Assembly (NCBI GenBank): GCA_903881585.1 | Contig: CAIRTW010000042.1 | Location: 1-42,847, forward strand | DNA length: 42,847 nt | Source: an uncultured Bacteroidota bacterium | GTDB lineage: Bacteria > Bacteroidota > Bacteroidia > Chitinophagales > Chitinophagaceae | Direction of reading: 5' to 3' | In this document: positions 12,416 to 22,525 of the stretch, piece by piece | How positions within the stretch are numbered: position 1 is the first letter of the stretch | Layout: each line of letters opens with the position of its first letter | The notes under the pieces: model-generated | Database searches by the model: none | What the model saw: only the letters and a program-made list of their open reading frames with translations | Told to the model about the DNA's origin: nothing | Position numbers and translations under genes: made by a program

Positions 12416-12504
12416 GAGTATTTTTAATTGAAGTTTGTTTGAAAAATTAGTTTAGTTAGTTAGCTGCCACACCCCTTTGAGGCATGGGACATCAGCAGGC
12501 GTGT

Positions 12505-12521
12505 CACACTTTAGAAGTGTG
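12505..12521. terminator. Perfect 7-bp hairpin downstream of the Met-rich OMP gene
   Basis: CACACTT-tag-AAGTGTG. Confidence 0.4.
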
Positions 12522-12530
12522 CCGCATCAT

Positions 12531-13667
12531 TTAAAAAGAATATTGCAACCCGGCGAGCAGGTTTGATTTTAAGGCCATCTGTGTGCCATTGAGGTTCTGA
12601 TATACAGGCATACCATACTCGGCCATTATACGGAAATGCTCCAGCACCGGTTTCATCAGGTAAAAGTTGAGGCCTGCATATACGTTCATCCAGGTACCGC
12701 CGTAATTGCTTGCTTTTGTGGTTGGGTCATTTTCCTGGTAGATCACATTAGCTACAACCGGATCAGCGCCAGAGATCATGTCTGCATGAACATCTTCGCC
12801 TCTGAGTGTGGCGCTGAGAAACGGCAGGAACTGGTAGCCCGCCCATGCGGTTGCGTGATATACATTGCCGTCTTTATACCCAAGCGAATTATAGTTGAGT
12901 TTTACATCAGCGCCGGCATTTGCGCCCCAGTAAAACAGCCCATATTTCCGGGCATACGTAATGTCAGGGTCTATGCTCACAGATCCGGTACCGGTCTGCA
13001 TATCGTAGGCCAGGCGCTGGTTGTCACCAAGCATGGTGGTGCCAGTCTCCTTTATGCTCCCGGTAGGAAGGCTGATACCAATGCTGCCAATAATGCGCTG
13101 CGCAGCAGTACCTGAGAAATTATAGAGCGCAGACAATTTCGTATCGGTAATACCGGAAGACATAGTTTGCATGCCCATGTTTGTGCCGGCGGGCATATAC
13201 ATCCACGATCCATTCATAAACATGTATCCTCCCTTGGAGTCCATATGCATGCTCATGTTGTTCACCATATATCCGCCCATAGCCATAACTGTTAGCCTGT
13301 CGGTAACACCATACATGGCCATGAGCATGTGCATCTGCATGGTCATTGTTTCGGGGGCCATCATATAGTTCTTGTAAACTGTATTGTCACTTACCTTGTC
13401 TGTGCCAGCATTGTTGCCGCTCATCATGGAATTCATGTAGGTATAAGACAGCATCCACGTACCCTTTTTATGAATATGGTCGGTCATTACACCAAGCGGC
13501 GCCTGCGTATTTCCCGCACAGCCACAGTATCCACTGCAAGACTGGTCGTTATTAGTATTATCAATCTTTATTCCCTGATCTGTATTTTCTTGCTGGGCGT
13601 AGCTGCGGGAAGCCATGATGCCGCAAATAAACAGCAGGAATATTTTTAAAAATTTCATGCTAAACAT
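12531..13667 (-). CDS. Met-rich outer-membrane beta-barrel protein, copper cluster
   Basis: Signal peptide, CSGYCGC segment, Met/His-rich MMAPETMTMQMHMLMAMYG...MSMHMDSKGGYMFMNGSWMYM, C-terminal aromatic LQYSF. Confidence 0.7.
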   Translation of the reverse strand: MFSMKFLKIFLLFICGIMASRSYAQQENTDQGIKIDNTNNDQSCSGYCGCAGNTQAPLGVMTDHIHKKGTWMLSYTYMNSMMSGNNAGTDKVSDNTVYKNYMMAPETMTMQMHMLMAMYGVTDRLTVMAMGGYMVNNMSMHMDSKGGYMFMNGSWMYMPAGTNMGMQTMSSGITDTKLSALYNFSGTAAQRIIGSIGISLPTGSIKETGTTMLGDNQRLAYDMQTGTGSVSIDPDITYARKYGLFYWGANAGADVKLNYNSLGYKDGNVYHATAWAGYQFLPFLSATLRGEDVHADMISGADPVVANVIYQENDPTTKASNYGGTWMNVYAGLNFYLMKPVLEHFRIMAEYGMPVYQNLNGTQMALKSNLLAGLQYSF

Positions 13668-13734
13668 TTTAAAGTTTAATTAAATAAACGCATCCCGCAG
13701 AAATATGCAGGACACCAATCAACTAAAAAAAACA

Positions 13735-14151
13735 TTAAGCAGATGGCGGATGGAAAACAGAACTATGAAAAGAGGAAGTTCGAAGGTCGTTGTAGGTAAA
13801 ATACTTATTGGGAATTTCTGAAGTAACGAAATGCTTTACTTCAAATTTAGTATTAGCGTAAAACAGGTTTACCACCTGCTCACTCTTCTGGTTGCGGGAA
13901 TTGGGCGCCTGCTCCTTGCCTTCTTTTGCCAGCTTCTTTTTCAGACAGCATTTACCATCGCAATGCATAGATGGTTTGTTCCTGTTCTCACAAAGATTTT
14001 TGGCTATGTAGTCCTTGTTGGCATAATACTGGCCCAGTATTACAACCTGGCTAAAGGTTTGTAACAATATACCCACGAGGGCAAATATGGCAACCAGTCT
14101 TTTCAATATATACTGATTCTTATCAGTTTTTAACGATAAAGTTACGGACAA
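13735..14151 (-). CDS. Small protein with CENRNKPSMHCDGKCCLKKKL motif
   Basis: One hydrophobic segment then Cys-rich motif. Confidence 0.7.
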   Translation of the reverse strand: MSVTLSLKTDKNQYILKRLVAIFALVGILLQTFSQVVILGQYYANKDYIAKNLCENRNKPSMHCDGKCCLKKKLAKEGKEQAPNSRNQKSEQVVNLFYANTKFEVKHFVTSEIPNKYFTYNDLRTSSFHSSVFHPPSA

Positions 14152-14187
14152 CTGCTATTATTTCCTAAATTTACTTACCGGTATTAT

Positions 14188-15180
14188 ATGAAAAAAGCCT
14201 GCTCCCTGCTGTTCGTAACCTTCCTTTCAATTTCCATAAGAGCGCAGGAATTATACAATCTTACGCTGCCGGCCAGCACTTTGCCTAAAGGAGCCTTGGG
14301 CATCAGGCTATTCAATGAAAGCTATAGCGAACAAGGTCTCATCCGTAAGATTACAGAGCTGAAACTGATGTACGGCATAACGTCAAAACTTTCAGTTACT
14401 GTAACAGGAGTAGCATCCGACTACCACTCCTTGTACCTGCCAGTCGATTTTATCCTGCATGACCATTCTGGGGGTAACGCGCCGCCCGCTGCCAATTTGC
14501 CACAAGCGACCCCCAACCCATATATTTTTGCCGGTACTGACCTCTATGCCCAATACCGCTTCCTTGCATCCGATGGGCAGAACTCCCACTTCAGGATGGC
14601 GGCCTATGGCGAAGGGTCTTATGTACGCATTGCTTCGCACCTGGGTGATCCGGAGCTGCTTACCCACAACACCGGCTTTGGCGCAGGCCTTATTACTACT
14701 TATCTGAAATCTCACTTTGCCGCTACAGCTACCTTGGGCTATGTGATCCCGACCGAGTATGCGGGCAATGCTTTCGACAAATATGGTGGTGCATACTATA
14801 CCACCATCAAGTACGGAAATGCCTTTAATTATGATCTTGCGCTGGGTTACCTGCTTTTCCCTCGGCACTATAAAACCTATAATCAGAGCAATGTGAACCT
14901 ATACCTGGAATTCCTGGGCAGGAGTTACGGAGCGGCTGCGGTGACGCAGCAGGACGGGGTGGTAACAGATCACATCCCTAACACGCCTTTCCTGAAAGCT
15001 GGCAACTATGTGGATATAAACCCCGGCGTGCAATGGATCATTAAATCGTCGTTGCGCATAGATGTTTCTGTTGGCTTCCCGCTCATCAATTCATCGTTCA
15101 TACACCAATACCCACTTTATTACATAGGGTTACAACGCTATTTCTTTTTTAAGAAGCGCAGTTCGGCAAAAAGTGATTAA
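14188..15180 (+). CDS. Outer-membrane transporter-like protein
   Basis: Signal peptide and beta-barrel-like pattern, RYFFFKKR end. Confidence 0.6.
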   Translation: MKKACSLLFVTFLSISIRAQELYNLTLPASTLPKGALGIRLFNESYSEQGLIRKITELKLMYGITSKLSVTVTGVASDYHSLYLPVDFILHDHSGGNAPPAANLPQATPNPYIFAGTDLYAQYRFLASDGQNSHFRMAAYGEGSYVRIASHLGDPELLTHNTGFGAGLITTYLKSHFAATATLGYVIPTEYAGNAFDKYGGAYYTTIKYGNAFNYDLALGYLLFPRHYKTYNQSNVNLYLEFLGRSYGAAAVTQQDGVVTDHIPNTPFLKAGNYVDINPGVQWIIKSSLRIDVSVGFPLINSSFIHQYPLYYIGLQRYFFFKKRSSAKSD

Positions 15181-15190
15181 TTTTGATACT

Positions 15191-15607
15191 ATGAAATCCC
15201 TGCCTACAATTACTGCAATTTATCTCATCTGCCTGGTTATTGGTGAAAGCTGCAAGCCTAAATCGGGCAACACGATCACCGGCGGCGGCAAGGGTGGCAC
15301 CTATACCATCAACGTCACTGGCGAGCACCACGGCGGCCTGCTCGATACCTGCAAAATGTATATAAAATATGCGACACTGGATGCACCGGCAAATGGCATA
15401 TATGATGACTCTAATGCTGCCACAATAAGCAATGGAGTGCCTGTAGCTGATTTTAGTGACCTTACTGTTGGCAATTATTATGTGCTCGCAATAGGCTACC
15501 ACGGCGGCTATTCTCCGCCCAATGTTAAAGGGGGCAAGTCATTCGTTGTTTCAGGATCTGCGCAGGTGGTAAGCGATACAATACCTACCTACCAGTATAA
15601 TCCATAA
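15191..15607 (+). CDS. Tandem small lipoprotein 1 (ITGGGKGG family)
   Basis: Lipobox ...GESCKPK; TITGGGKGG; LLDTCKMYIKYATLDAPANGIYDDS. Confidence 0.7.
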   Translation: MKSLPTITAIYLICLVIGESCKPKSGNTITGGGKGGTYTINVTGEHHGGLLDTCKMYIKYATLDAPANGIYDDSNAATISNGVPVADFSDLTVGNYYVLAIGYHGGYSPPNVKGGKSFVVSGSAQVVSDTIPTYQYNP

Positions 15608-16084: not shown

Positions 16085-17200
16085 ATGAATAACCGGATAA
16101 CAGAATTAGAGATCAACAACTTCAAGTCCATCAAGCACATCAAGATGGACTGTAAGCGGATCAATGTGCTTATCGGCAGGCCCAACGTGGGGAAGTCGAA
16201 TATTCTGGAGGCTCTATCGTTATTTACTGCTCCTTATAGTGATCCCACTAAGAAATTTCTTGGGGATTATATTAGATATGAAAAGCTAAATAATCTTTTT
16301 TATGATCTCGAAAGAAAAAATCAGGTAAGTGTTGTATCTAATTTGGGCTTTGCGGCATTAAGATTTCACATGAACGGAATAAACGCTTATGACATAATCA
16401 TAGGCTCGGATACTACGGCTTTAGATTCAATGAATCGTTCTGATACTGGTAGAACTCTAAATGATAAAAAAAATCTCTTTGCCAGTCTCTTTACTTCAGA
16501 AGTTGTTTTAGATAATGTAATGAAAAATGCTATCCCAGCTTTTTATGCGTCAATGAATGAAGTTAGCAATAGAATGGATATTTTATATGGTAATGATGAA
16601 GGGTATCATACTCCTGTGAAAAAATATCATTTTAAATCATTAAACGAACATCCAAACCATTTCCCGCTCTTTTTACGACCACCGTATGGCGACAACCTTT
16701 TCACGATTATTGAAAGTAACCGTGATTTATGGGGAGAGGCTGCTGGTTTTTTTAATGAATATGGCTTGGACTTGTTAGTTGATAAAGAATTTGAAAAACT
16801 AAATGTTCAGAAAAGAATAGATCGTTATGTAACAAAGATTCCCTATTCTCTTGCAGCAGACACACTTCAAAGGATAATTTTCCATTTAGCAGCAATAGAA
16901 ACAAACAATGATTCCATTTTGCTTTTTGAAGAACCTGAAAACCACTCTTTTCCACCATACATAAAATTATTTGCGGAGAGATTAATAGAAAACGAGAATA
17001 ACCAATATTTTCTCGCTTCTCATAGCCCTTACATTCTTAAAACATTAATCGAGCAATGCCCTCCGGAAGATTTGTCAATTTTTGTTGCGAGCTATGAAAA
17101 TTATGAAACGAAAATAAAAGTTCTGAATGACGAAGAAATTCAAAATATCCTAGACACTCATATTGACCTATTCTTCAACATTCGTTCTTTTGAAAGATGA
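16085..17200 (+). CDS. AAA_15/AAA_21-type (OLD/RecF-like) ATPase
   Basis: Walker A GRPNVGKSN, Walker B SILLFEEPEN, LASHSPYIL switch. Confidence 0.9.
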   Translation: MNNRITELEINNFKSIKHIKMDCKRINVLIGRPNVGKSNILEALSLFTAPYSDPTKKFLGDYIRYEKLNNLFYDLERKNQVSVVSNLGFAALRFHMNGINAYDIIIGSDTTALDSMNRSDTGRTLNDKKNLFASLFTSEVVLDNVMKNAIPAFYASMNEVSNRMDILYGNDEGYHTPVKKYHFKSLNEHPNHFPLFLRPPYGDNLFTIIESNRDLWGEAAGFFNEYGLDLLVDKEFEKLNVQKRIDRYVTKIPYSLAADTLQRIIFHLAAIETNNDSILLFEEPENHSFPPYIKLFAERLIENENNQYFLASHSPYILKTLIEQCPPEDLSIFVASYENYETKIKVLNDEEIQNILDTHIDLFFNIRSFER

Positions 17201-17712
17201 TCAATATAAAAAGAATTTTTCCCGAATGTTGTGCAGATACCTTCCTTGTATCCCTCTTATTTCAGCAAGAAATGCTCCCCGATTATGACGGCATTGGAGA
17301 TGTTGCTAATGCCATGAACGCATATCCAGGTGAAGAATTTATTATCGGCCTAATTGATACAGATAAATTCAAAAGGCCTGACCCGAAATATCTGCGAGAA
17401 TTTACTGAAGTTGTTGATGACAAATTGGATTCTGAGGGGGTAATCGTAATGAAAATGCCCGGAACTAACCGGCATATAATAAGGCTGCATCCTGCATTTG
17501 AAAAATGGGCACTTGCAACCGCTCAATCTTGTGGGATTTATCCTGAAAAATATCGCTTCGAAACATTTAAGAAATTAGCCAAAGAAGCTAAGAAATTAGA
17601 AGTAGCTAAAAATAAAGATATTGAGGCTTTTCTCATGGATATTATCAATAGAAATCCTCCTGCCATCCAAACACTCAGATTCTGGCTGGAAAAAGCGGGA
17701 AACGATAATTAA
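17197..17712 (+). CDS. ATPase partner, possibly a reduced Toprim-like protein
   Basis: ATGA overlap with ATPase; FPECCADTFLV and FIIGLIDTDKF resemble E...DxD of Toprim. Confidence 0.5.
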   Translation: MINIKRIFPECCADTFLVSLLFQQEMLPDYDGIGDVANAMNAYPGEEFIIGLIDTDKFKRPDPKYLREFTEVVDDKLDSEGVIVMKMPGTNRHIIRLHPAFEKWALATAQSCGIYPEKYRFETFKKLAKEAKKLEVAKNKDIEAFLMDIINRNPPAIQTLRFWLEKAGNDN

Positions 17713-22144: not shown

Positions 22145-22525
22145 ATGGGACTCACATGCACAACCATATCCATCAGCAACCCCAGGAAACCGCAGTTAAA
22201 TGCTATAGAGGTAAGGTGCTTGGCTGATACAGGGGCGTTAATGATGAGTATTACAGAGACCATCGTTATACAATTGCAACTAGACGAATTGGAAAAACGT
22301 GTGGTTACTATTGCAGATGGTAGTACAAGGAAAGTTCCGTTGGTAGGGCTTATAAGAATTGATTTTGAAAATCGCTTTTGCTTCACTGGAGCATTTGTTT
22401 CAGGCAATGAACCGCTGCTAGGCGCAGTGCCTATGGAAGAAATGGACCTTGTAGTTCATCCGGCCAAACAAAAAGTAATTCCTAATCCAGAACACCCAAA
22501 CATACCCCAATACATAATGTATTGA
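22145..22525 (+). CDS. Clan AA (retropepsin-like) aspartic protease
   Basis: CLADTGALMMSI catalytic motif, LLGAVPMEEMDLVVHP. Confidence 0.8.
   Translation: MGLTCTTISISNPRKPQLNAIEVRCLADTGALMMSITETIVIQLQLDELEKRVVTIADGSTRKVPLVGLIRIDFENRFCFTGAFVSGNEPLLGAVPMEEMDLVVHPAKQKVIPNPEHPNIPQYIMY

Follow-up and report, generated by a model that had tools for sequence, protein, structure and literature searches.

A candidate split ATPase-nuclease abortive-infection unit with a previously undescribed, probably Toprim-like partner family

The window, by which we mean the whole stretch of 42,847 nucleotides analysed here from an uncultured member of the Chitinophagaceae, carries two genes that are joined by an ATGA overlap, just as the initial annotation had placed them. 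The first encodes an ABC/OLD-type ATPase and the second a small partner protein that is probably Toprim-like. Their features are listed below, with the partner residues set against those of a Burkholderia (Bp) class 2 OLD nuclease.

16085..17200, plus strand: ATPase gene, 371 aa, ABC/OLD-type (AAA_15/AAA_21)
16175..16198, plus strand: Walker A GRPNVGKS of the ATPase, residues 31-38; G31, G36, K37 and S38 invariant in 55 ATPases
16919..16939, plus strand: Walker B LLFEEPE of the ATPase, residues 279-285; E282, E283, P284 and E285 invariant
17021..17023, plus strand: H-loop histidine H313 of the ATPase (SHSP); H-S-P invariant
17159..17179, plus strand: C-terminal motif of the ATPase, HIDLFFN in the window and GVDLFFN in the consensus; D361, F363 and N365 invariant
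17197..17712, plus strand: partner gene, probably Toprim-like, 171 aa, ATGA overlap with the ATPase gene
17224..17226, plus strand: E10, putative metal ligand, counterpart of Bp OLD E400; invariant, 64/64
17236..17238, plus strand: D14, putative metal ligand at +4 from E10, like E404 after E400 in Bp OLD; invariant, 64/64
17356..17364, plus strand: D54-T-D56, DxD motif, counterpart of Bp OLD D455/D457; both Asp invariant, 64/64
17500..17502, plus strand: E102, counterpart of Bp OLD E508 and RNase M5 E110; E or D in 64/64
17590..17592, plus strand: K132, possible counterpart of the catalytic K562 of Bp OLD; Lys in 63/64

The assignment of the upstream protein as an OLD/RecF-like ATPase holds. 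It scores 67.9 bits against AAA_15 and 54.2 bits against AAA_21, both above the curated Pfam cut-offs; Walker A, a Walker B with EEPE and the H-loop are all present; and its AF2 model (pLDDT 80) has an ABC-type fold, nearest to the Rad50, SMC head, OLD, PtuA, GajA and retron Eco8 ATPases. In place of the ABC signature LSGGQ these ATPases have ADTLQR or a similar string, conserved in most members. The AriA, GajA and HEC ATPase models match all 55 paired ATPases tested. Matches to EngA/Der were rejected, since they stem only from the common GRPNVGKS string. Two ATPase subgroups, distinguished by a Walker A of RPNVGKS or of QSSGKS and with the latter at ~20-25% identity to the window ATPase, share one partner family, and the GVDLFFN-like motif at the C-terminus is possibly a docking site for that partner.

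For the partner, the initial annotation had singled out PECCADTFLV and IIGLIDTDK as resembling the Glu and DxD motifs of Toprim nucleases. Both strings are there, with the correction that the residues it numbered E9, D53 and D55 are E10, D54 and D56, and of the likeness it proposed the residue constellation stands while the fold finds no significant Foldseek or hhalign match. In the Bp OLD nuclease the two-metal site is made up of E400, E404, D455, D457 and E508, with K562 as the catalytic lysine, and in RNase M5 D31 and E110 take the E404 and E508 positions (PMC6755086). The partner agrees with the Bp OLD site in residue order, in the +4 spacing after the first Glu and in the DxD, with only partial agreement in spacing otherwise; position 102 is E in 42 and D in 22 of the 64 aligned partners. 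The family thus has the Glu, the DxD and the accessory acidic residues of a Toprim two-metal site. The structural check that had been proposed gave a confident AF2 model (pLDDT 87.2, pTM 0.83), in which E10 comes right after strand 1, D54 ends the strand of residues 49-54 and E102 starts the helix of residues 101-111, and it gave no Foldseek match at E<=0.001 among PDB and viral models. Profile comparison by hhalign with DUF4276, RloB and OLD-like Toprim sets, sampled from genomes, was likewise not significant, though a non-significant local alignment to OLD Toprims puts E10, D14, D54 and D56 on VEGxTE and DxD. Because neither Foldseek nor the profile comparison reached significance, we describe the partner as a probable Toprim-like nuclease and go no further.

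The partner had no match in Pfam (E<=1), NCBIfam, PADLOC or the PDB, and PHROGs gave nothing convincing; 19 family members scanned singly against the family libraries returned nothing of substance beyond weak single-member matches, to HEC-01B at E=0.01 and to two unnamed PHROGs at E about 3e-4. Within the taxonomic family 22 of 299 genomes have a relative, within the phylum 10 of 396, and none of 4 congeners carries the pair. The listed match L022 is spurious and was rejected as a relative, its frame being SixA-phosphatase-like. One genome-contig scan returned 153 partner loci, 80 of which were read; these are mainly from Bacteroidota, with others from Methylobacter (L073, L075), a Desulfobacterales MAG (L083) and a Chlorobi MAG (L057). 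On the partner tree the window protein forms a deep branch with its 58-59% identical relative from genome G006. It has P28, D29, M87 and R92 where nearly all other members have N, H, H and H, and despite these differences it retains every putative catalytic residue.

In all 80 loci an ATPase gene lies directly upstream of the partner gene (75 scored by regular expression and 5 by inspection of ATPase motifs, one of the latter a contig-edge case with the ATPase C-terminus only), so that the co-occurrence on which the initial annotation had staked its reading was borne out. The pairing spans Bacteroidota, Pseudomonadota and Thermodesulfobacteriota, with gaps between the two genes mostly of -8 to +9 bases. 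Judged from its sequences, the partner belongs to a real, previously undescribed family, and the pattern and pairing are well beyond chance, because the family recurs, E10, D14, D54 and D56 do not vary across the alignment, and the ATPase gene is always upstream. At five loci (L028, L029, L030, L036 and L046) a small XRE-type HTH gene sits just 5′ of the ATPase gene, which suggests a regulator in some lineages.

The GC content of the two genes is 34% and 38% against a gene mean of 45%. Relative to the homologues in G006, the closest relative, dN is 0.21 for the ATPase and 0.29 for the partner with dS saturated or near-saturated, and since dN is low against such synonymous sites, both proteins are under purifying selection. 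In a sister species (G271) the flanks align over 12501-15606 and from 17712 on, and the pair is absent; the alignment resumes at the partner stop codon, before ctaB (cyoE). The equivalent site there, from a lipoprotein gene to ctaB (L126, G271:C37), holds a YoeB-like toxin, named from sequence alone, and an antitoxin, in the place that is taken in the window by a second lipoprotein gene and the ATPase-partner pair. Elsewhere in the window, at 670-1349 on the minus strand, an MNT-like nucleotidyltransferase gene and a gene for a HEPN-like protein, recognised by eye, likely form a toxin-antitoxin pair.

The same genome has a second copy of the pair (L130, G000:C115, 7323-8926), set between nuoF and nuoG and bringing hardly any other sequence with it: its ATPase gene starts 8 bp after nuoF and its partner gene overlaps the start of nuoG. 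At this junction three congeners have a short spacer and the fourth a different ORF. At least 14 separate loci have the pair at nuoF|nuoG, and these copies cluster on the partner tree, with 3-4 changes needed; the placement may have had a single origin. Across 30 genomes of the family, the junction is short (<=165 bp) in 15, holds the pair in 2, a GxxExxY-type ORF (named from its sequence motif) in 8 and other ORFs in 3, and in the remaining 2 is a stretch of about 480 bp with no clear forward ORF, so that in this family the junction seems to act as a hotspot for compact cargo. Other cargo seen there (L196-L225) includes retropepsin-like, four-helix-bundle and glycosyltransferase-like ORFs. 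A small retropepsin-like ORF (LADTGA) also adjoins the cytochrome oxidase genes of the window, at 22145-22525, and is of the same sort as one of the ORFs seen at nuoF|nuoG.

Comparable placements are found in other operons, with neighbours named from their sequences. In Methylobacter (L073, L075) the pair stands between glyQ and glyS, with a gap of 3 bp on one side and an overlap of 4 bp on the other, and seems to have crossed phyla into an essential operon; at L106 (398-1922) it is flanked by a parE-like and a parC-like gene, at distances of 6 and 2 bp; and further copies lie between rfbF and rfbG (L092), after metH, sufD or menD, and before metG. Operon embedding is not universal: of 69 pairs, 13 have both neighbours in the same direction and within 150 bp, and 32 have them in the same direction at any distance. 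Neither an integrase nor a transposase was noticed next to the pair. A bolder proposal can be built on these placements, namely that the pair represents an undescribed split ATPase-Toprim immune class carried as ORF-only cassettes that lodge precisely between the subunit genes of essential operons (nuoF|nuoG, glyQ|glyS, parE|parC), with nuoF|nuoG as a general hotspot; we regard it as speculative and rather doubtful. If it were true, the expression and retention of such cassettes would be tied to an essential transcript. The recurrence of the pair in housekeeping operons, for the most part away from defence islands and mobile elements, suggests that units of this kind may escape guilt-by-association scans, and the lodging itself makes the entry of ORF-only cassettes into operons a testable question.

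The reading that we favour, with modest confidence, is that the two genes form a split-OLD ATPase-nuclease unit that acts by abortive infection after an infection-induced trigger. A nucleotide-bound assembly of the ABC/OLD-type ATPase would keep the small partner inactive and would also sense the trigger. The partner, a putative minimal Toprim-like nuclease with a two-metal site of E10, D14, D54, D56, E/D102 and K132, would, once released or activated, cut nucleic acid, and the resulting arrest of the infected cell would constitute abortive infection. RNA such as tRNA would be a likelier target than DNA, because AriB and RNase M5 cut RNA; the AriB of PARIS is a two-metal tRNase (PMC12409363). 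The proposed anti-phage role is drawn by analogy with PARIS and with the TOPRIM_OLD toxins that are neutralised by AAA proteins. Neighbourhoods of the pairs are mostly housekeeping genes, the immediate neighbours including AbiE, BrxH, restriction enzyme, MADS3-like and AbiLi-like genes, and among the matches listed defence-like genes number at least about 8 of 148 near the pairs versus about 2 of 116 distal to them. By PADLOC this is a mild enrichment, and with so small an excess the defence-island argument was downgraded. Pattern-based scans found no relatives on phages, plasmids or IMG/VR viral contigs, and our literature search found no phage-defence experiment for the partner family.

Three other explanations have to be weighed. 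The pair could be a toxin-antitoxin module, in which the ATPase would constitutively neutralise a toxic Toprim-like nuclease and the genes would persist by addiction and not by phage protection. That AAA (D29) proteins neutralise TOPRIM_OLD toxins in E. coli, as found with NetFlax (PMC10440598), speaks for this, as does the YoeB-like toxin-antitoxin pair at the equivalent site in the sister species, and ORF-only cassettes within essential operons would fit a selfish element. However, the nearest split ATPase-Toprim system, PARIS, tolerates the deletion of either gene without toxicity (PMC9122126), and the toxin-antitoxin model is thereby excluded for it. We consider such a module unlikely here, while noting that it overlaps mechanistically with abortive infection. 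A doubt of another kind attaches to the partner itself, which might be a metal-binding protein of some other fold, devoid of nuclease activity and with a coincidental E/DxD pattern, as the failure of both sequence and fold searches to return a significant Toprim match would allow; this is decidedly improbable, given that six residues of the Toprim constellation are conserved in order through a 64-row alignment and that the gene is always paired with an OLD-like ATPase.

Very unlikely, in our judgment, is a host enzyme of nucleic-acid maintenance, that is, a RecF/Rad50-like ATPase with a Toprim nuclease that would serve in repair or RNA processing and would have been domesticated in some lineages. 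The patchy presence of the pair in the family, its absence from the four congeners, its AT-richness and its varied genomic sites all argue against such a role, even though the ATPase fold is closest to Rad50/SMC heads, the nuo-lodged lineage occurs in several genera, and the archaeal OLD protein Cran1 works in the cell cycle and apparently not in defence (PMC12796447).

Among known systems PARIS (AriA/AriB, OLD class 4) is closest in layout, an AAA_15/AAA_21 ATPase gene followed by a separate gene for a Toprim-type nuclease. Of the PADLOC models, AriA fits the window ATPase best (72 bits). The published rule for detecting PARIS asks for AAA_15 or AAA_21 over 32/27 bits together with DUF4435 over 27 bits (PMC9122126); the window ATPase lies well above the former values, whereas DUF4435, the domain of AriB, was found neither in the 171-aa partner at E<=1 nor in 19 family members at E<=10, and so the pair falls outside the rule. 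DUF4435 sequences were sought for comparison in 99 genomes, and none was found. AbiL (AbiLi/AbiLii) and RloA/RloB likewise join an ATPase to a small Toprim-like effector, and the window ATPase aligns with AbiLi over almost its full length (61.6 bits), but no RloB (PF13707) or DUF4276 match was found in the partner across the 19 members. The earlier impression of a layout recalling PARIS and AbiL that can be assigned to neither is therefore upheld, and in the PADLOC comparison then suggested it is the ATPase that matches (AriA and AbiLi models) and the partner that does not.

By description, and not by sequence, the pair also resembles the AAA(D29):TOPRIM_OLD combination of NetFlax, an AAA protein with a separate Toprim toxin that was experimentally validated there (PMC10440598). 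Gabija GajA, OLD classes 1-3 and the retron Eco8 effector couple an ABC ATPase to a two-metal Toprim nuclease in one fused chain, in contrast to the separate genes here, and in some of them a helicase or reverse transcriptase accompanies it, a neighbour that the pair lacks; the 371-aa ATPase has no fused Toprim, and the gene after the partner is ctaB/cyoE and not a UvrD-like GajB. Septu is defined by an HNH partner, PtuB; no HNH match was found in the partner or in the 19 members, whose conserved residues are E/DxD and not H-N-H. HEC-01B, of the PADLOC candidate HEC-01, matches 1 of the 19 weakly (E=0.01), and a search for it in 148 genomes gave no match, nor any control match. RNase M5 is a housekeeping enzyme of rRNA maturation and, unlike our partner protein, works without an ATPase partner. 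The likeness to it, taken from published residues and not from an alignment, lies in a compact Toprim with a Glu, a DxD, D31 and, later, E110 on a helix (PMC6755086). The PADLOC-DB version used dates from 2023, and therefore newer system descriptions may exist. The pair would function like a split OLD/PARIS unit but lies outside the described systems in the libraries searched, and the best reading is that it is a new variant of the split ATPase-Toprim abortive-infection systems. With it the split OLD/PARIS group gains a partner family that is widespread, bears no label and goes undetected by the models of PADLOC, Pfam and NCBIfam used here.
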